A DNA stretch of 64,000 nucleotides from Parabacteroides sp. FAFU027 (lineage in GTDB: Bacteria; Bacteroidota; Bacteroidia; Bacteroidales; UBA7332), in contig NZ_JAKZKV010000004.1 in the NCBI RefSeq assembly GCF_022808675.1, forward strand, positions 310,001 through 374,000. Direction: 5' to 3'. This document shows, one piece after another, positions 2,138 to 58,317 of this stretch (its first letter is position 1; each line of letters starts with the position of its first letter). Made by a program: the position numbers and the translations under genes. The notes under the pieces were generated by a model. That model saw nothing but the letters and a program-made list of their open reading frames with translations, did no database searches and was not told the origin of the DNA.

Positions 2138-4951
2138 ATGATGAAACTTATAAGAATAGGAACAATATTATGCGGATTAGGATTTGCCTCATTAGCCAAT
2201 GTGGTGGGGCAGACCGCTGATATGAAAAGAGCAAAGATTTCAAACAGCGATTCTTTGGTACACGTTGCTTATGGAACCGTTAATAAGAATGATTTGTCCG
2301 GTACTGTATCCGTATTGAATCCAACAGAATATCTGGATAAGCATTTTGGAAATTATCCGTTAGAGGGTGTTGATGCTTTTATTGGTGGAAGTAATCTATG
2401 GAATATTGGATCTTCATTAGTATTGGTAGATGGGGTGCCTCGTGCCATAACGGATGTAACTGCTTCTGAAATTGATCAGATCTCTTACATTAAAGGCGCA
2501 AATGCCGTTGTTTTGTACGGTAGTCGTGCTGCAAATGGCGTAATCCTGATTACGACAAAACGTGGTAAAGAAGGTCAGCTAATAAAAAATGTTCGCGTGA
2601 ATGGCGGGGTTAATATGCCGAAATCATATCCCAAATATCTGGGATCGGCAGAATACATGACCTATTACAATCAGGCATGTAAGAACGATGGATTGGCAGC
2701 TCTTTATGATGATGCAACAATAAGTAATTATGCATCGCATGCGAATTTGTACCGATATCCGGATTTAGATTACTATTCGTCTGACTTTTTGCGTAGTATG
2801 TCTAATACATATTCAGCCAATACAGAGTTTTCCGGAGGTACTGAACGAGCACGTTTTTATACTTTAGTTGGCATTCAGAATCAAAATTCTTTATTGAATT
2901 TTGGCGAAGGTAAAAATGAAAATAACATGCGGTTCAATGTGCGTGGTAATGTCGATTTGAAATTGAATGATTTTATCAGCACTTATCTTAATGTTTCAAC
3001 TGTATTTTATGATAGTCGAACAGCTTTAGGTAATTATTGGAGTCAGGCGGCAACATTGCAACCTAACCGTTTTTCTCCGTTTATTCCTATAAGTCTGATA
3101 ATTCCGGGAGCAACACAATCACTGTACTATGTAAAAACGAGTCATAATATAATTGACGGACAATATTTGCTTGGAGGTACTCAGCAATATTTGACGAATC
3201 CTATCGCAGATGTGTACGCTGCTGGGCATCAGAATTACACCAGTCGTCAATTTCAGTTTACAGATGGAGTAGATGTGGATCTGAAGAATACATTAAAGGG
3301 TCTTTCGGCTCATGCCCAGATGAGTGTGGATTTTTCCAATATCTATAATACTGTTGTTAACAAGACATATGCGGCTTATGTGCCGGAATGGGTTAATGGA
3401 ACACCGTCTGACTCTATTAAAAGCTTGAATAATTACACTACGAAAGATACTAATCCAGGTGTACAGAATATTACTAATACATGGAACGATCAAATTATTG
3501 ATTTTAATGCACATATAGATTATGTCAATACCTTTGATCAAAAACATAATGTATCTGCGATGTTGGTTGGAGCTGGGACAATTCGCCGCCAAACCGGTGA
3601 TTTCCAAAACCGAACTAATAGTAATTTAGGTTTGCAATTAGGCTATAATTACGATCATAAGTATTATGCCGATTTCAGTGGAGCTTTAATTAACTCAACA
3701 AAGTTGTCGTCAGCAAATCGTGTAGCCTTTTCGCCAACATTAGGTTTAGGTTGGGTGATAAGCGAAGAGGATTTCCTAAAAGGTTCGGATATGCTAAATC
3801 GTTTAAAATTATCAGCCTCTGCCGGTGTGATAAATACAGACCTGGATTTTGGAGTTAATGATTATTTCTTGTACAATTCAAAATATTCATCTACTGATTA
3901 TTTTTCCTGGAGTGATGGTACTTATGTGAATCGAGCAACAGCTTCAGCACGTTGGGGGAATAAAAATCTTACTTTTGCTAAGAGAAAAGAGTTGAATTTT
4001 AGTTTGGAAGGAAGTTTGTTTAACCGTGCATTAGATTTGCGCTCTACGGCATTCTTCATTAAAAAAGATGGTATTCCGGTACAACCAATTACTCAATATC
4101 CGGTTTATTTTACCCAAGGATACCCATCCTCTTCATTTGTTCCATACATTAACTATGGAGCCAACAGTTACAAGGGTTTTGACTTTCAATTTAATTACAG
4201 TAAAAAAGTAGGAAGTGTCAATCTGTCTGTTGGAGGAGCCGGGACTTATGTTGCAACAGAAGTGCTAAAGAGAGATGAGTTTTATGTTGATAAATATCGT
4301 AACCGTGTAGGAAAGCCTGTTGATGCCCTGTTTGGGTTACAGAGTGAAGGTCTTTTTGCTGATCAAAGTGATATTGATAACCATCCTGTACAAAAATTCG
4401 GAGTAGTTAAGCCCGGGGATATCAAGTATAAAGATCAGAATGGTGATGGTGTAATTGATGAAAAAGACGAAGTGATGATTGGTCGTTGGGGTAGTCCGTT
4501 TACCTGTGGTTTGAATTTGACTACTGAATGGAAAAACTTTACTTTGTTTGTGCTTGGAACTGGATCGTTTGGTGGTACAGCTGTTAAGAATAATGATTAT
4601 TACTGGATTTCTGGTAATAAGAAATACTCTGAAGTGGTGCGTGATAGTTGGACTGAGGAGACAAAAGCTACTGCCAAATATCCTCGTTTAACAACATTAA
4701 GTGGTGATAACAATTTCCGTTACTCTGATTTCTGGACTTACAGTACCGATAGAGTTAATCTCTCAAAAGTCCAATTGACTTATACCTTACCAAAACGAGT
4801 GTTAGGTAATTCGGTTCTGAAGAAAGTAAATATCTATGTTAGTGGAAATGACTTGCTCACAATCGCTAAAAATAGAGACGTTTTAGAGCTTAATGTAGGT
4901 AGTGCACCACAAACCCGTTTCTATAATTTGGGTGTTAAGGCTGAATTTTAA
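2138..4951 (+). CDS. SusC-like TonB-dependent receptor, short form lacking the N-terminal CarboxypepD-like domain
   Basis: 937-residue outer-membrane receptor. After a signal peptide and a short degenerate TonB-box-like stretch (VAYGTVNKNDLSGTVSVL, about residues 43-60) the plug begins, with the typical VLVDGVPRAI segment at about residue 97 and an LYGSRAANGVILITTKRG ending near 144. The rest is beta-barrel, ending in phenylalanine. A calcium-loop-like DQNGDGVIDEKDE lies near residue 765, common in SusC. Most SusC are about 1,000 residues or longer and carry a carboxypeptidase-regulatory-like domain before the plug; that domain is absent here. Two adjacent ATG codons (2138, 2141) could start it. 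It should pair with the SusD at 5068 and occupies the XusC-like position. Confidence 0.92.
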   Translation: MMKLIRIGTILCGLGFASLANVVGQTADMKRAKISNSDSLVHVAYGTVNKNDLSGTVSVLNPTEYLDKHFGNYPLEGVDAFIGGSNLWNIGSSLVLVDGVPRAITDVTASEIDQISYIKGANAVVLYGSRAANGVILITTKRGKEGQLIKNVRVNGGVNMPKSYPKYLGSAEYMTYYNQACKNDGLAALYDDATISNYASHANLYRYPDLDYYSSDFLRSMSNTYSANTEFSGGTERARFYTLVGIQNQNSLLNFGEGKNENNMRFNVRGNVDLKLNDFISTYLNVSTVFYDSRTALGNYWSQAATLQPNRFSPFIPISLIIPGATQSLYYVKTSHNIIDGQYLLGGTQQYLTNPIADVYAAGHQNYTSRQFQFTDGVDVDLKNTLKGLSAHAQMSVDFSNIYNTVVNKTYAAYVPEWVNGTPSDSIKSLNNYTTKDTNPGVQNITNTWNDQIIDFNAHIDYVNTFDQKHNVSAMLVGAGTIRRQTGDFQNRTNSNLGLQLGYNYDHKYYADFSGALINSTKLSSANRVAFSPTLGLGWVISEEDFLKGSDMLNRLKLSASAGVINTDLDFGVNDYFLYNSKYSSTDYFSWSDGTYVNRATASARWGNKNLTFAKRKELNFSLEGSLFNRALDLRSTAFFIKKDGIPVQPITQYPVYFTQGYPSSSFVPYINYGANSYKGFDFQFNYSKKVGSVNLSVGGAGTYVATEVLKRDEFYVDKYRNRVGKPVDALFGLQSEGLFADQSDIDNHPVQKFGVVKPGDIKYKDQNGDGVIDEKDEVMIGRWGSPFTCGLNLTTEWKNFTLFVLGTGSFGGTAVKNNDYYWISGNKKYSEVVRDSWTEETKATAKYPRLTTLSGDNNFRYSDFWTYSTDRVNLSKVQLTYTLPKRVLGNSVLKKVNIYVSGNDLLTIAKNRDVLELNVGSAPQTRFYNLGVKAEF

Positions 4952-8082: not shown

Positions 8083-10119
8083 ATGAAGACTAGTTTGATT
8101 AAATTGTGTTTTGTATTACTCGCATTCATTTCTTCACTGAATGTTTTCGGATGGCAAGGAATGCCTATGCCTCAACTACATGTTGAAGGAAGATACCTTA
8201 AGGATTCGGATGGGAAAATTGTAAACCTGAAGGGGTTTGCTCAAACATACAGTCCTTTTTTTAATAATAATGCATGGAATAATTATGATGTGGCGGGGTG
8301 TCTTAATTATAATAAATGGCTGATCGATGAGATGTTGGCTGCTGAATGGAAAATGAGTTTTATGCGTTTGCATATGGATCCATACTGGAGTAATACCCCG
8401 GGTTGCACAGGACGATATGAGGGAGAAGAGTGTTTTGATGAATTCCGATTCAGAAATTACCTTGACAAAGTCTTTGTACCGATGGCTGAATATTGTATTT
8501 CTAAGGGTATATATGTTGTTATGCGGCCTCCGGGAGTTTTCCCTAATCAGATAAGTGTTGGAGATGGGTATAATCAATATTTGAAGAAAGTCTGGGGGAT
8601 AGTGAGTAATCACCCAAAGTTGAAAAACAATCCGAATGTCATGTTTGAATTAGGCAATGAGCCGATTGATATATTAGGAACAGATGGAACCTATGGGTCA
8701 AGTGGAGATGCTAAATTTGAGAATCTTCAAAAATACATGCAATCGATTGTTGATGTAATACGTGGTGCCGGTGCAAATAATATATTATGGGTGCCGGGAT
8801 TAGGTTATCAATCGTCGTATGCCGGGTTTCCTAAATATCCAATAAAAGGTGATAATATCGGATATGCTATCCATGTCTATCCGGGCTGGTTTGGAAGTGC
8901 AAATGGTTATCTGACATTTCAGAGAGAATGGGATAAATCCGTGAAGCCGATTGCGGATATAGCCCCTATAATGGTAACGGAAATGGACTGGGCTCCGGCA
9001 AAATATAAATCATCATGGGGTAAAAGCAATACAGGTATAGTTGGTGGAGACGGCTTTGGGGCCAACTTTAAATATATTACAGATAATTCAGGAAATGTGA
9101 GCTGGCTGTTATTTACTGATGCTGATAAATTGGCTCAATTTGTCGAAGCTCCTCCAGCAACTGGTGATACCTGTGTTTTCCTAAATGATCCCGAAGCTTG
9201 CCCATGGCAAGCATTTCATTGGTTTAAGGAATATGCAAATCCAACAAGTTTGCCAGTAACTAAACTGGAAGTGTTGAATTCCAACTTAGCGCCGATTGCT
9301 GATAATGAACCTCTTCAATTAATAACAGGCGGGGATACATATATATTTGTAAAAGCGACTTATGATGATGGGCATATTGAATACGTAAGCTCAAAAGCAA
9401 CTTACCAGAGTAATAATGCAACTGTCGCAACCGGTGCCCCAGGTCGATTAATCGCTAAAAAAGATGGTACGGCAAATATTACGATTAACTATGGTGGACT
9501 TGATAAACAAATAAGTGTAGTTGCTTCAACATTCCCATTGAAAGCGGAATGTATGGATCTGAATATGTGGGGAGCCAATACTTTTGATAATAGTACGCAT
9601 GCTCTTCATATTACTCAGTGGGGGCAGGCCGGTTGGACCTTTGCTAACGGAGTTGATATCTCAGGCTACAAATATTTGGTGTTTAAATTTGGGACATATA
9701 ACTACCCCTGGGGGACAAATATACATTTAAAGGATGGAAGTACAGAGTCTCAGGATTATACCTGGCAAGGAAAAAAACAACTGGTAATTGACTTGCAGAA
9801 TGTTAAGACCAGTGCCGGTGTATCTATCGTACCTAATCATATTACGGCGGTAAGGATTTGGTCAGCAGGTGGTGATATTGTAATTGATAATGTGTATTTA
9901 ACCAATAAATCAGATGCGAGTGAAGAGACTTCGGCCATTGAGAATGTCACTATTGATAAAGTTTCAGCTGATGATATTGTGGATGTTCATACAGTTACAG
10001 GTGTTTTGGTTAAATCTCATGTGAAACGATCAGAAGCTAAATACGGTCTTTCAGATGGTGTGTATATAATAGGTCGTCAGAAAGTGATTGTGATGAATAG
10101 AAGCAGATTTTTTAATTGA
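8083..10119 (+). CDS. GH5 family glycosidase with Ig-like domain, shared C-terminal beta-module and sorting-like tail
   Basis: 678 residues from the ATG at 8083. The frame is open from a TTG at 7888, but that start would overlap the terminator hairpin, while 8083 opens a normal signal peptide ending near NVFGWQG. The catalytic GH5 domain spans about 20-390: acid/base Glu193 in FELGNEP, HVYPGW in the middle, nucleophile Glu300 in VTEMDWAP. An Ig-like domain follows (about 391-482), then a 126-residue beta-module (about 484-609) also present in the esterase at 10392, then a ~55-residue sorting-like tail. GH5 enzymes are retaining endo-glycanases; the subfamily and substrate are unclear. In known xus loci this slot holds the GH10 Xyn10C, so this enzyme may be the surface endo-enzyme. 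It could also attack a mannan or glucan. Confidence 0.85.
   Translation: MKTSLIKLCFVLLAFISSLNVFGWQGMPMPQLHVEGRYLKDSDGKIVNLKGFAQTYSPFFNNNAWNNYDVAGCLNYNKWLIDEMLAAEWKMSFMRLHMDPYWSNTPGCTGRYEGEECFDEFRFRNYLDKVFVPMAEYCISKGIYVVMRPPGVFPNQISVGDGYNQYLKKVWGIVSNHPKLKNNPNVMFELGNEPIDILGTDGTYGSSGDAKFENLQKYMQSIVDVIRGAGANNILWVPGLGYQSSYAGFPKYPIKGDNIGYAIHVYPGWFGSANGYLTFQREWDKSVKPIADIAPIMVTEMDWAPAKYKSSWGKSNTGIVGGDGFGANFKYITDNSGNVSWLLFTDADKLAQFVEAPPATGDTCVFLNDPEACPWQAFHWFKEYANPTSLPVTKLEVLNSNLAPIADNEPLQLITGGDTYIFVKATYDDGHIEYVSSKATYQSNNATVATGAPGRLIAKKDGTANITINYGGLDKQISVVASTFPLKAECMDLNMWGANTFDNSTHALHITQWGQAGWTFANGVDISGYKYLVFKFGTYNYPWGTNIHLKDGSTESQDYTWQGKKQLVIDLQNVKTSAGVSIVPNHITAVRIWSAGGDIVIDNVYLTNKSDASEETSAIENVTIDKVSADDIVDVHTVTGVLVKSHVKRSEAKYGLSDGVYIIGRQKVIVMNRSRFFN
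9532..10095 (+). repeat. Duplicated module, copy 1 (C-terminus of GH5)
   Basis: 564 bases coding for a beta-module plus tail. They align without any gap to 11538-12101 in the next gene, with high identity at both DNA and protein level. Shared landmarks are MDL.M.G.NTFDN, QWGQAGW, YKYLVFKFGT, YPWGTNIHLKDG, DYTWQG and VKRSEAK.GLSDGVY. The gapless match shows a recent duplication or conversion between neighbours. Confidence 0.85.
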
Positions 10120-10168
10120 GTTCATTTTCTCTAATTTAAAGATTGGAGATAAGCGCAATTTTCTAAGT

Positions 10169-10202
10169 GGGTGTCCTGCTTGGGTAGGACACCCTTATTT
10201 TA
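10169..10202 (+). terminator. Terminator hairpin after the GH5 gene
   Basis: 9-bp GC-rich perfect stem, 10169-10177 with 10186-10194, 8-base loop, followed by TTATTTTA. It lies about 50 bases after the GH5 stop and before a 190-base leader to the next gene. It resembles a classical intrinsic terminator. Confidence 0.8.
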
Positions 10203-10295
10203 AGTCGTAATTTTTAAGTAACCCAATCTTCCGGATATTTTGTAAACAATAAATATGTAAATGGAGGATTCTATTATAAAGGCTTGATTATTATG

Positions 10296-10303
10296 TAGTT
10301 TTG
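10296..10303 (+). promoter_or_regulatory. Possible Bacteroidota -7 promoter element upstream of the CE6 esterase
   Basis: TAGTTTTG matches the Bacteroidota -7 consensus TAnnTTTG. It lies between the terminator at 10169 and the start codon at 10392, giving a leader of about 90 bases. No convincing -33 TTTG is present at the expected distance, so this is only a candidate for a new transcript start. Confidence 0.35.
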
Positions 10304-10391
10304 CTTTGGTGAGCTGCTGTATCGAATGAGTTTAATAGGAAGTGTGATGTTGAGCTAAATGTTTATTGATTAGTTGGAAAAAAGTTATCGT

Positions 10392-12116
10392 ATGAATCGA
10401 ATATTTGTCGTTTTTGTAATTGTTTTATTGGGTTTTGTATTCTTGAGCGATCAATCTTGTAATGCTACTGTTCCAGATCCAAACTTTCATATATATCTGT
10501 GTTTTGGACAATCAAATATGGAGGGGAATGCTGCAATTGGAGACCTCGACAGGATAGGTGTTGATAGTCGTTTTAAAGTAATGACGGTTTCTCCTGATGA
10601 CAATCTTCATTTGGGCCGGATTGTTGGTTACTGGTATACGGCAGTACCACCCTTGTGTCGTTGGGATACAGGTCTTACTCCAGCCGATTACTTTGGACGG
10701 GTTTTGGTTGATAGCCTTCCTTCGAATATAAAAATTGGTGTTATAGTTGTAGCTATGGGAGGGAGTGGAATTGATGCATTTGACAAAGATAATTATACAC
10801 AATACTATCAGAATGCAGATGCATTTCAGAAAGGGCTAATGGATATATATGGAGGCAATCCTTATGCCAAGATTATTGAAATGGCAAAGCTTGCTCAACA
10901 ATCTGGTGTTATCAAAGGCATTTTGTTGCATCAGGGTGAATCCAATAATGGTCAGCCTGATTGGCCAGGAAAAGTGCAGAAAATATATAATGATATTCTC
11001 GGGGATCTTAATCTGGAACCAAATTCGGTTCCATTGTTGGCTGGTGAAATGTTGCAAAAAGATCAGGGCGGACTTTGTTGGGGAATGAACAGCATTATTG
11101 CGACTTTACCATATTACATAACCAATTCGTATGTTATTTCATCGATTGGATGCGAAGGAAATGGTAAAGATTTATTCCATTTTTCTACTGCCGGGGCTCG
11201 CGAATTAGGCAGTCGATATGGAAAACAGATGTATTCACTGTTAAAGACTTATAATACTGTAGATGGTCAGACAGTAGATCATTTATCGGTCGATAATCAG
11301 AGTGTTTCGATGTTGACCGGTTCTGTAAAAAGAATTTTGCTCAGAGCAGTCTACAAAGATGGACATACACAAGACATAACTACTAAAGCAGTCTATGCTA
11401 TTAGTAATCCATTGCTTTTACGGATTACAAATGGATATCTTGAACCTTTAAAGGATGGGGCTACAACTGTCACTGCAAGTTTCAAAGGTGAGCTTGGTGA
11501 TGTTAAGCAGATTACTTTAAATGTTTCTGCCGTAACCTTCCCTTTGAAGTCTGAGTATATGGATTTATCTATGTTTGGCACAAATACGTTTGATAACAAT
11601 ACTCGAACTCTTCATATTTCCCAATGGGGACAGGCCGGATGGTCTTTCGTAAACGGAGTGGATTTGTCGGGTTATAAATATTTGGTATTTAAGTTTGGTA
11701 CATTGAATTATCCCTGGGGAACTAATATTCATCTGAAAGACGGCAATACTGAGTCGAAAGACTATACGTGGCAAGGTCAGAAACAGTTGATGATTGATCT
11801 GCAAAATGTGAAAACCAATGAAGGAGTAATGATAACCCCTAATCACATAACAGCAGTGAGATTCTGGTCCTCGGGTGGAGATCTGGTTGTTGATAAGGTG
11901 TATTTAACCAATAAACCTGATGGTAGTGAGGAAACTACCGGGGTGGATAGAGTTACTTGTGAGAAACCATCAGGTGATGATATTGTTGATGTTTATACAA
12001 TTACAGGAATGAAAATAAAATCACAAGTGAAACGATCAGAGGCAAAACTGGGCCTTTCGGATGGTGTATATGTAATTGATCGTCAAAAGGTAGTTGTAAT
12101 GTCTCGAGGTTATTGA
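10392..12116 (+). CDS. CE6-type acetylxylan esterase (SASA/SGNH fold) with Ig-like domain, shared beta-module and tail
   Basis: 574 residues from the ATG at 10392; the TTG at 10374 only extends the frame. A signal peptide is followed by a SASA/CE6 esterase domain (about 28-290). The nucleophile is Ser41 in GQSNMEG and the catalytic Asp260/His263 are in KDLFHF. LLHQGESN is also typical of the family. An Ig-like domain follows (about 295-382), then the same beta-module (about 383-508) and sorting-like tail (about 512-574) as in the preceding GH5. CE6 enzymes remove O-acetyl groups from xylan. Its N-terminal half is paralogous to the single-domain esterase at 12285. The extra modules suggest that this copy stays with insoluble substrate or the cell surface. 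Confidence 0.88.
   Translation: MNRIFVVFVIVLLGFVFLSDQSCNATVPDPNFHIYLCFGQSNMEGNAAIGDLDRIGVDSRFKVMTVSPDDNLHLGRIVGYWYTAVPPLCRWDTGLTPADYFGRVLVDSLPSNIKIGVIVVAMGGSGIDAFDKDNYTQYYQNADAFQKGLMDIYGGNPYAKIIEMAKLAQQSGVIKGILLHQGESNNGQPDWPGKVQKIYNDILGDLNLEPNSVPLLAGEMLQKDQGGLCWGMNSIIATLPYYITNSYVISSIGCEGNGKDLFHFSTAGARELGSRYGKQMYSLLKTYNTVDGQTVDHLSVDNQSVSMLTGSVKRILLRAVYKDGHTQDITTKAVYAISNPLLLRITNGYLEPLKDGATTVTASFKGELGDVKQITLNVSAVTFPLKSEYMDLSMFGTNTFDNNTRTLHISQWGQAGWSFVNGVDLSGYKYLVFKFGTLNYPWGTNIHLKDGNTESKDYTWQGQKQLMIDLQNVKTNEGVMITPNHITAVRFWSSGGDLVVDKVYLTNKPDGSEETTGVDRVTCEKPSGDDIVDVYTITGMKIKSQVKRSEAKLGLSDGVYVIDRQKVVVMSRGY
11538..12101 (+). repeat. Duplicated module, copy 2 (C-terminus of CE6 esterase)
   Basis: Gapless counterpart of 9532-10095: first 378 bases of beta-module (to 11915), then about 186 bases of tail. 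The upstream Ig-like domains of the two genes are similar in type but less alike, so the strongest duplication starts at the module boundary. Confidence 0.85.
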
Positions 12117-12284: not shown

Positions 12285-13136
12285 ATGAAAAGAAAAGCTT
12301 CTTTATTAATCCTTCTGAGTTTGCTTCTTGCAACAGCTAACACATTCTCGCAAGATCGTAATTTCTATATTTTTCTATGCCTTGGGCAGTCCAATATGGA
12401 AGGAAATGCCAAAATAGAAGATCAGGATAAAATCATGAATGACCAGCGCTTTCAGGTTTTGTCTACACTCAACTGTCCTGACCTGGGACGGGTAAAAGGA
12501 AACTGGTATCCGGCAGTACCGCCTTTATGTCGGTGCAATACTGGATTGACTCCGGCGGATTACTTCGGTAGAACGATGATTGCCAATCTTCCAAAGAAAG
12601 TAAAAGTAGGAATAATCAATGTGGCTATCGGTGGTTGTAAAATAGAACTTTTTGATAAGGACAATTACCAATCTTATGTGGCAACAGCTCCATCGTGGAT
12701 GATTAATATGATAAACCAATATGACGGAAATCCTTATGCTCGTCTTGTGGAGATGGCAAAGCTAGCCCAGAAGAAAGGCGTTATTAAAGGCATATTGCTT
12801 CATCAGGGAGAGTCAAATACAGGTGATATAAACTGGCCTTCAAAAGTAAAAGGCGTTTACGGTAATCTGATGAAGGATCTGAAATTGGATCCCAAGAAAG
12901 TACCTCTTATTGCCGGAGAAATGGTGCATAAAGACCAGGGAGGCAAATGTGCGAGTATGAATCAGATCATTTCTACACTTCCACAAACTATTCCCAACTC
13001 ATTTATTATCCCGTCACAAGGTTGTACTGCTGCAAAGGACAGTCTTCACTTTAATGCACAAGGGTATCGTACTCTGGGGAAAAGATATGCAGAACGAATG
13101 CTCTTTTTCTTAGGATATAAGAATGTTAAATTGTAG
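12285..13136 (+). CDS. CE6-type acetylxylan esterase (single domain)
   Basis: 283 residues from the ATG at 12285; a TTG 21 bases upstream is in frame but precedes the signal peptide. The signal peptide ends near NTFSQ. The SASA/CE6 domain fills the rest: nucleophile Ser36 in GQSNMEG, catalytic Asp252 and His255 in KDSLHF, plus LLHQGESN. It has no accessory domain or sorting tail, so it is probably periplasmic, where it would deacetylate imported oligosaccharides. It is the close paralogue and neighbour of the modular esterase at 10392, consistent with tandem duplication and separate compartments. Confidence 0.88.
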   Translation: MKRKASLLILLSLLLATANTFSQDRNFYIFLCLGQSNMEGNAKIEDQDKIMNDQRFQVLSTLNCPDLGRVKGNWYPAVPPLCRCNTGLTPADYFGRTMIANLPKKVKVGIINVAIGGCKIELFDKDNYQSYVATAPSWMINMINQYDGNPYARLVEMAKLAQKKGVIKGILLHQGESNTGDINWPSKVKGVYGNLMKDLKLDPKKVPLIAGEMVHKDQGGKCASMNQIISTLPQTIPNSFIIPSQGCTAAKDSLHFNAQGYRTLGKRYAERMLFFLGYKNVKL

Positions 13137-56570: not shown

Positions 56571-56745
56571 AACTTACATAAATAGAGAAAAGATAAGAAG
56601 CGAGCATATTCAGCCATTCGCCAAAGCGTGTGGCTCTTATGCAAGTTTCAAGTGTAACCGCTAAAGGATATGTATTGATTATCTATTGTATAACGAGAAT
56701 ATAAATGTAAAACTGGCATTTTTAATGCTTGACCAAATATTTAAA

Positions 56746-58317
56746 ATGAACAAATTAAATCAACCCAAAGTTTTTCTGATAAAAATGGTGTTAATGTCGG
56801 TAATGTGTCTAAATATTCTGTTCACCTACGCTACAAATTCCGTTTTTGACGGTACAATGAGCATAAATGTTTCAGGAAATAATCGTACAATGGTCGTTCA
56901 TGTCCCGGCGAATATCGAGGAAAACAGTCCGCTGATGATCTCCCTTCACGGTCGTTGGGGGAATGGGGCAGCACAGCAGCAATGCGCAAGATTTGAATCC
57001 ATCGCAGATACAGCCCGTTTTATCGTAGTTTATCCGGATGGCCTGCCACAGGCAATTCTCGGAGGTGGGGGGAATACCGGATGGGATGTTAGTGGGGCAA
57101 CTGATGATGATATTACTTTTTTCAGGGCTATTATCAATACCATGTATGACAGGTATAAAATAAACAAGTCACGCGTTTATTTATCTGGGTTTTCAATAGG
57201 AGGAATGGAGACGTATCATGCAGCAAATGTTGCAGCCAAGACTTTCGCCGCATTCGCGTCGGTGAGCGGTTATCCGTTGAATGAGTACCATCGTTATTAC
57301 ATAGGCGCCCGGCCTGTCCCATTTATGCACATTCATGGCAAATATGATGGGTTTGTAAAGGTAGATTCAGTGCCTATTGTAGTTGACAATTGGGTGATAC
57401 GCAATGGATGTAATCCTGTTCCGGTAGTCACTGATAAGCTCGGGGTTTATACTAAGAGTGTCTATTCTGCCGCCAATAGTAGTTTTCAATATATTTATTA
57501 TGCACTTGACGGCAGGGGGCATGAATACACTATTACGGATACATTTAATCCGAGTAAGGAAATATGGAATTTTGTAAAGCGATATACACTTAACGATGTC
57601 TGCGACACTACATTGAAGTGGAATCCGAATTTTCAGATGCAGAAAGAAGGTATTGTACCCGTTGGCTGGACAACCTTTGTGGATAGTAGAAGTGTCAACG
57701 GTAGCAATCAAATAGTAACCAGTGGACCGCGAATAATAACGCTCGGAGATGGAAGTGATTATCAACATGGGTTTCTTCTACAGTCGGGGTCACAAACCGG
57801 ATCACTGACTTATGGGTTCGATAAACAACGCACGTTACAACTTCAGCCAGGACGTTATAAAATTAAGTTTCGCGTGATAGCATATAATTCAGAAAGTGTC
57901 GGCAAAACCCTGACAATGCAATTGAAAAACAGAAATAATAACACTGACATCTACAGCTTAGCTGTCCAACCGGTGAATTGTATTCAGAATAATGTGGCTA
58001 AAAACTTTACGCTGGCATCTTATGACGTGACAATCAGAAATTACGGTGAATATCAACTGAGCTTCACACTGCCTGCCGGTTTTGTAGAGATGATGGTGGC
58101 AGATCTTGGCGTTTACTCTTTTATTAATGATAATACCGGGGTTGAAACAACTAAAATAGACACTGTCTCTGCTGATGAACTTGTGGATGTTTATACGGTG
58201 AATGGCAATATGGTAAGTTCGAAAAAGAGTTTGTCCCTCTCTCTCCGGGAATTGAAGAACGGAGTTTATATAGTTTCGAGTTGTGAAAGAAGCTATGTAA
58301 CTAAAGTATTGAAATGA
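56746..58317 (+). CDS. PHB-depolymerase/CE1-like esterase with C-terminal beta-domain and short sorting-like tail
   Basis: 523 residues from the ATG at 56746. The open frame extends to a TTG at 56686, and an ATG at 56725 is possible, but 56746 is closest to a normal signal peptide (MNKLNQPKVFLIKMVLMSVM, then CLNILFTYA). Esterase domain (about 40-280) with MISLHGRWGNG, nucleophile Ser150 in SGFSIGGME, Asp region in HIHGKYDGFV and His in GRGHEY. A beta-domain follows (about 290-460), and a ~55-residue tail with SADELVDVYTVNG and LKNGVYIV, similar in style to the tails of the GH5 and CE6 proteins. It is related to the catalytic domain at 32169. Probable feruloyl or acetyl esterase. Confidence 0.82.
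   Translation: MNKLNQPKVFLIKMVLMSVMCLNILFTYATNSVFDGTMSINVSGNNRTMVVHVPANIEENSPLMISLHGRWGNGAAQQQCARFESIADTARFIVVYPDGLPQAILGGGGNTGWDVSGATDDDITFFRAIINTMYDRYKINKSRVYLSGFSIGGMETYHAANVAAKTFAAFASVSGYPLNEYHRYYIGARPVPFMHIHGKYDGFVKVDSVPIVVDNWVIRNGCNPVPVVTDKLGVYTKSVYSAANSSFQYIYYALDGRGHEYTITDTFNPSKEIWNFVKRYTLNDVCDTTLKWNPNFQMQKEGIVPVGWTTFVDSRSVNGSNQIVTSGPRIITLGDGSDYQHGFLLQSGSQTGSLTYGFDKQRTLQLQPGRYKIKFRVIAYNSESVGKTLTMQLKNRNNNTDIYSLAVQPVNCIQNNVAKNFTLASYDVTIRNYGEYQLSFTLPAGFVEMMVADLGVYSFINDNTGVETTKIDTVSADELVDVYTVNGNMVSSKKSLSLSLRELKNGVYIVSSCERSYVTKVLK

Follow-up and report, generated by a model that had tools for sequence, protein, structure and literature searches.

This analysis concerns a 64,000-nucleotide stretch of the Parabacteroides sp. 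FAFU027 genome (contig NZ_JAKZKV010000004.1, positions 310,001 to 374,000 of the forward strand; hereafter the window) and a protein module found in two neighbouring genes, both on the forward strand, for enzymes of different families. The first gene (8083-10119, ATG at 8083) encodes a GH5 enzyme of 678 amino acids with a signal peptide (identified by eye), a catalytic domain, an immunoglobulin (Ig)-like beta domain (residues ∼392-482, 9256-9528), the module (residues 484-609, 9532-9909) and a C-terminal tail (9910-10116). The second (10392-12116) encodes a CE6-type (SASA) esterase with an Ig-like stretch, a second module copy (11538-11915) and its own C-terminal tail (11916-12113). A preliminary description, made from the sequence alone, had assigned the module to 9532-12101, an interval that does cover both copies; the modules proper are the two segments given above.

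Aligned end to end, 9532-10095 and 11538-12101 match over 564 bases (188 codons) with zero gaps, at 73.0% DNA and 75% protein identity, whereas 200 shuffles of one copy averaged 26.7% and never exceeded 31.0%. The gapless 564-base block reported earlier as common to both genes is thereby confirmed. Unconstrained self-BLAST returned 9512-10095 and 11518-12101, also gapless, at 72.6%. In 48-column steps, DNA identity of the pair is 40-60% upstream and 65-81% from the module start onward. Due to this step and the alignment ends, the shared block can be said to begin at the module boundary and to stop near the stop codons. The modules alone align without gaps (73.5% DNA identity over 126 codons; 78.6% protein identity over 131 residues), and the tails share 72.0% of 186 bases. 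The block consists of two joined parts, a CBM-type (carbohydrate-binding module) beta-sandwich of ∼126 residues and a short tail resembling a sorting signal of the type IX secretion system (T9SS). Module and tail had been introduced as one unit; they were indeed copied together, and the tail is nonetheless separate from the module.

The catalytic domains joined to this block are unrelated, as previously claimed. Pfam places the first protein in Cellulase/GH5 (3.3e-17; 63.3 bits, cut-off 23.5) and the second in SASA (PF03629, 1.8e-27; 96.8 bits, cut-off 24.8), within which the CE6 label is putative. Across 41 aligned homologues of the GH5 protein, Glu193 and Glu300 are invariant, and we take these to be the two catalytic glutamates. 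The full GH5 protein was modelled with AlphaFold from the 41-row alignment (predicted local distance difference test (pLDDT) 87.1, predicted TM-score (pTM) 0.76). The model contains, in order, the GH5 barrel, the Ig-like domain with its strands, the module, a low-confidence linker and a small C-terminal beta piece. The Ig-like stretch of the CE6-type protein was detected against Teneurin-like chains and is 31.8% identical to that of the GH5 protein over 66 residues.

No recognised CBM family had been seen in the module, and this was borne out at Pfam and NCBIfam cut-offs and among PDB sequences. The module region of the window proteins has no match at E≤1 in either Pfam or NCBIfam. At a lax threshold the sole Pfam match of copy 1 is AMIN (E 0.12, under its cut-off), which is unconvincing, and copy 2 matches nothing in Pfam at E≤10. 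Family searches used an alignment of 76 rows from which nine near-identical loci had been left out. At E≤0.1, members of this alignment match nine Pfam families (CIA30, CBM_25, XRCC4 and six more), each in one to three members and none convincingly; CBM11, for which Pfam presumably holds a model, is not among the nine. Against PDB sequences, copy 1 gives 0 phmmer matches at E≤10, and hmmsearch with the 76-row profile gives a lone match at chance level (a dynein-related chain, E 0.27). By sequence, the module is not a member of the CBM families tested, a comparison outside which CAZy's own models lie, and it may work in the manner of a CBM.

The AlphaFold check proposed for residues 484-609 was run on a 73-row alignment (the 76 rows without L003, L004 and L007) and yields a confident CBM-type beta-sandwich (pLDDT 94.4, pTM 0.89) with nine strands of at least three residues. 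In Foldseek, rows 1 to 4 are CBM86 (6sgf; best E 4.1e-4, probability 1.00, TM 0.58-0.60) and rows 5 and 6 are CBM11. VIA gives, among the matches listed, CBM11 at Z 11.2, CBM29 at 10.1, CBM86 at 9.5 and CBM15 at 8.5. Note that VIA rows less than 1 Z apart were taken as tied, and that families outside the VIA listing are not thereby excluded. CBM86, from Roseburia intestinalis, binds xylan and resembles the module in its xylan context, size (129-132 residues) and fold (in VIA 113 residues at 3.3 Å, other families scoring equally high); it differs in sequence, with 15-16% identity and no sequence-level match even by the 76-row profile. CBM11 of Clostridium thermocellum Lic26A-Cel5E (1v0a, 6r31) superposes over 124 residues at 2.9 Å but is 11% identical, and its ligand is mixed-linkage glucan according to the entry titles. 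The predicted fold is a common CBM-type sandwich, which suggests glycan binding and does not prove it.

Four clear copies are present in the window's own genome: besides the pair within the window, they lie at C4:377204 and C9:138182; a fifth match is weak (E 0.42). The copy at C4:377204 lies within a GH5-GH43 protein of 1456 amino acids that carries a recognised T9SS tail. The copy at C9:138182 (L119:7104-7805) belongs to a secreted protein of 233 amino acids that is nearly all module and tail, with no enzyme. The gene for this solo protein lies near divergently transcribed GH10 and GH43 genes and has an orthologue in a congener. Also nearby is the gene for a protein of 878 amino acids, GH30-like by eye, with no Pfam match at 1e-5.

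In genome samples the module was found in 19 of 393 genomes of the order and in 2 of 395 of the phylum, both from the same order. From the species collection, 80 of 125 confirmed stretches were retained; all but one of these 80 are named as Bacteroidota, chiefly Bacteroidales and relatives. The exception (L046) is a metagenome-assembled genome (MAG) of Fermentithermobacillaceae (Bacillota), in which a lipoprotein GH5 carries a module close to Dysgonomonadaceae copies; probably the MAG is misbinned or the module was transferred. After removal of identical modules and of three matches weaker than 1e-10, 127 module-bearing open reading frames (ORFs) were reduced to 107 distinct copies. Their hosts are GH5 (50), GH5-GH43 (28), CE6 (7) and CE6-GH5 (6) proteins, together with 12 for which GH43 alone is visible, the locus or contig being cut. 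The remaining four show no catalytic domain: the solo protein accounts for two of them, in two congeneric genomes, a third lies at the end of its contig and the fourth has no clear assignment. With 103 of 107 copies in ORFs with GH5, GH43 or CE6 similarity, the module is a discrete non-catalytic domain of carbohydrate-active enzymes. The carriers include environmental as well as gut bacteria, and the gut species B. cellulosilyticus has two copies.

The surroundings point to xylan. Genes of the window locus encode GH10, GH115, GH67, GH31, GH97, GH3, GH2, seven GH43 proteins, two CE6-type esterases and several further esterases (two of them BD-FAE), and the window is a glucuronoarabinoxylan locus. 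For neighbours elsewhere, 138 proteins were selected without nine near-duplicate loci and 124 were scanned, 14 long ones being left out. Pfam families were counted from the 25 most frequent families per batch: GH10 24, GH43 19, GH127 7, GH8 7, CBM6 7 and GH97 5 among the matches listed, with housekeeping-type neighbours present once each. These counts have no control set and come from loci that are partly inter-related. GH5 and CE6 genes occur in Bacteroides xylan loci according to the available portions of PMC4855328 and PMC3747994.

Enzymes with the module have a T9SS-like tail at the C-terminus or a lipobox at the N-terminus, one or the other, and SprA tracks the tail. Among 85 five-prime-complete copies (22 five-prime-cut ORFs were excluded), 58 have a tail and 27 do not. 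A Cys right after a hydrophobic stretch, as in lipoproteins, was seen by eye in 26 of the 27 tail-less proteins, and the 27th frame starts inside the enzyme; a strict lipobox pattern set beforehand is found in 14 of the 27 and in 2 of the 58. Of 74 family tails, 39 score at E≤0.1 against TIGR04183, the model of the T9SS type A sorting domain (best 1.9e-5); the window GH5 tail is not one of them, and its assignment as a sorting signal comes from the family. A related GH5 protein reaches 17.8 bits against the model cut-off of 23. SprA, a mark of the T9SS translocon, was found in every one of the 18 tested genomes with a tail, among them that of the window; of the 14 tail-less genomes tested, 7 have it (Fisher p 0.001, ignoring kinship). 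Note that both sets of genomes were chosen, that several of the seven genomes lacking SprA are small MAGs, and that B. cellulosilyticus was counted as a tail genome though it also carries a tail-less copy. An esterase-like protein in the window (56686-58317) ends at 58138-58314 in the same type of tail by eye (SADELVDVYTVNG...NGVYIV) and has no module, so the tail moves independently.

The high DNA similarity of the two window copies had been taken to indicate recent exchange. This does not hold, because synonymous sites between them are saturated: over the block the proportion of synonymous differences (pS) is 0.70 (synonymous divergence, dS, ∼2.0; nonsynonymous, dN, 0.16), and over the module alone pS is 0.79, past correction. 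A congener (G002) has the same pair, with a GH5 module 95% and a CE6 module 98% identical to the window's, so the sharing is older than the split of the two genomes. The sharing in the window is thus old and under purifying selection. Between window and congener, the GH5 block has a dS of 0.35 and the GH5 catalytic domain 0.09; the corresponding values on the CE6 side are 0.10 and 0.14. The excess in the GH5 block (9532-10095 compared with L006 of the congener) over its catalytic domain may reflect recombination or a separate history.

Within a locus, CE6 and GH5 modules are 66.2% identical in G380, 78.6% in the window, 86.7% in G025 and 95.6% in G138, and the Ig-like stretches of the same four pairs 30-37%. 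DNA identity jumps at the module start in all four. In G138 it is ∼0.5-0.6 before the module start and then 0.90-0.98 across most of the block; this is a recent copy. Simple descent does not fit, since the CE6 catalytic domains of the window and G380 are 76.3% identical and the modules of the same two proteins 40.9%. In a 34-row tree, the CE6 modules of G025 (98/90) and G138 (99/95) each join the GH5-GH43 module from the same genome, as does that of G380 with weaker support (94/80). A further group, with full support but weak inner order, unites the window pair, that of the congener and L039. Forcing the five CE6-borne modules into a single clade, a group named only after the first tree was seen, costs 257.7 log-likelihood units and is rejected (p-AU, approximately unbiased test, 5.5e-62). 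As judged from these comparisons, three lineages have copied module and tail from one to the other of a neighbouring GH5 and CE6 gene, and the copied segment has a sharp edge where the module begins. This exchange of a segment by partner enzymes of one locus is the most unusual aspect of the finding; for concerted evolution and gene conversion in connection with CBMs, the literature searched listed one paper, on DUF26 proteins of plants.

Conserved positions were taken from the 72 rows of the 76-row alignment outside the branch to which the window copies belong; 45 columns have one residue, or an aromatic residue, in at least 85% of rows. All 72 rows have a Tyr-Trp pair. Of the 107 distinct copies, 101 have it too; it is missing from the five copies in the window branch and from the divergent L033. 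Gln29, Gly31, Gly34, Trp35, Ser44, Trp110 and Gly113 are kept in the window branch and the rest alike, and some window-branch changes are conservative (Tyr30 to Trp, Tyr37 to Phe). Three aromatic motifs had been proposed as a sugar-binding face. One, QWGQAGW, is the local form of a family-wide Q-[YW]-G-F-G-G-W; the other two, DYTWQG included, fall in a region in which the window branch differs from the family, around the point that reads S-F-R-L-F-D and then Tyr-Trp in the other rows. As a whole, the interpretation offered in the preliminary description is partly supported.

We consider it probable that this is a xylan-binding module of a family without a Pfam model, exported by the T9SS and copied between neighbouring GH5 and CE6 genes. 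The type IX system would export both enzymes, and the module would then hold them on decorated xylan at the cell surface, where a GH5 chain-cutter and a CE6 deacetylase could act on the same patch of polymer. We propose that the module-plus-tail segment was copied between the adjacent genes in several lineages because both partners need the same grip, and would since have been kept by purifying selection. Were xylan binding true, a recurring module on Bacteroidales xylan enzymes would gain a function and a family, and the copying from gene to adjacent gene would give direct evidence of partner enzymes being kept on one target by a shared binding module. The natural pairs found make this shared-targeting question testable, and the alternation of lipoprotein and tail offers a clean comparison of two routes that place the same enzyme on the cell surface.

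Several results count against xylan binding, T9SS export or copying. Among the 50 nearest GH5 structures, glucanases form the majority of the matches listed, the others including arabinoxylanases and one mannanase. The fold of the module is also seen in proteins with no known role in polysaccharide binding: VIA ranks 7zkq, a chain from complex I assembly, first (Z 11.6) and has domains of agarase and xanthanase mixed with CBM11 in its first ten rows, and CIA30 is weakly matched by two of the 76 members (best E 0.0061). Neither whole window protein matches the T9SS model at E≤1, so both fall short of the curated cut-off. The four window-branch rows all deviate at 20 of the 45 conserved columns, with the Tyr-Trp pair and Arg65 lost, and the ligand of this branch, to judge by these residues, may have changed or been lost. 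L094 and L111 are two more tandem pairs; in these, CE6 and GH5 modules agree at only 45-48% and the CE6 modules cluster together, so copying between neighbours took place in some lineages and not in others. That the module founds a new Bacteroidales xylan-binding CBM family, with GH5 and CE6 copies kept alike by repeated copying, a shared and co-changing specificity, and the window branch as a natural specificity switch, is possible, though we would not lean on it.

The module might instead be a spacer or stabiliser, a beta-sandwich that keeps the catalytic domain off the surface and binds no glycan. It does follow an Ig-like stretch in both window proteins, its fold recurs in the complex I assembly chain, and the window branch is under purifying selection despite the loss of several near-invariant residues. 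A spacer would seem to have no need for near-invariant aromatic and polar residues (Gln29, Arg65, Asp68 and the Tyr-Trp pair among them), and the module is the main part of the enzyme-free 233-residue secreted protein encoded near GH10 and GH43 genes; we think a purely structural role unlikely.

A family can be recognised in CAZy and have no model in Pfam. Due to this, the module could already be a named CBM family lacking a model in Pfam, NCBIfam or PDB, all the more as CBM112 (PMC13357471) and CBM113 (PMC13235733) were described in 2026, according to the available text of both papers. CBM112 resembles the module in coming from Bacteroides, in its length (∼115 residues) and in two tryptophans required for binding, and differs in being mannan-specific and inserted inside a Bacteroides cellulosilyticus GH26 mannanase, as the accessible part of PMC13357471 has it. 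No kinship was found between the 76-row alignment and its likely host, a GH26-type protein of 562 amino acids from B. cellulosilyticus DSM 14838 identified as such by length and a split GH26 match (hhalign probability 0.2, 13 columns; a single sequence is weak for remote kinship). CBM113 is close to CBM96 and CBM80, and CBM89 is a beta-helix, according to the portions available of PMC13235733 and PMC8810776, respectively. No description of the module was found in the literature searched, which covered few subscription papers, and an existing named family seems to us improbable.

A reading in which the T9SS would recognise the module plus its tail as one long cargo signal has been largely refuted and is very improbable: tandem pairs do copy both as one block and SprA accompanies every tail genome tested, but 27 of 85 five-prime-complete copies keep the module without a tail, 26 of them with a lipobox-like Cys by eye, and half of the tail-less genomes tested (7/14) have no SprA match.

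Returning to the xylan-binding reading, its GH5 partner was compared further with known structures. By phmmer against PDB the protein gives weak matches to 5a8m and 5a8o and nothing else. The nearest GH5 structures by name are GH5_26 glucanases, endoglucanases, a mannanase and CtGH5-type arabinoxylanases, and due to this mixture the specificity and subfamily were left unassigned. The mycobacterial GH5_13 galactofuranosidase described in the available part of PMC10115798 does not help with the subfamily here. PMC3396655, PMC8165983 and PMC8040265, as far as their available text goes, were used as background only.

Two further observations were made in the window. After a SusD gene, 2138-4951 encodes a protein of 937 amino acids that has no Pfam match at 1e-5 and by eye resembles a SusC-type outer-membrane transporter with a short N-terminus. 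Two adjoining CE6-type genes, related in tandem, have 62% DNA identity (10475-11137 compared with 12353-13009), and the module is on the first only.

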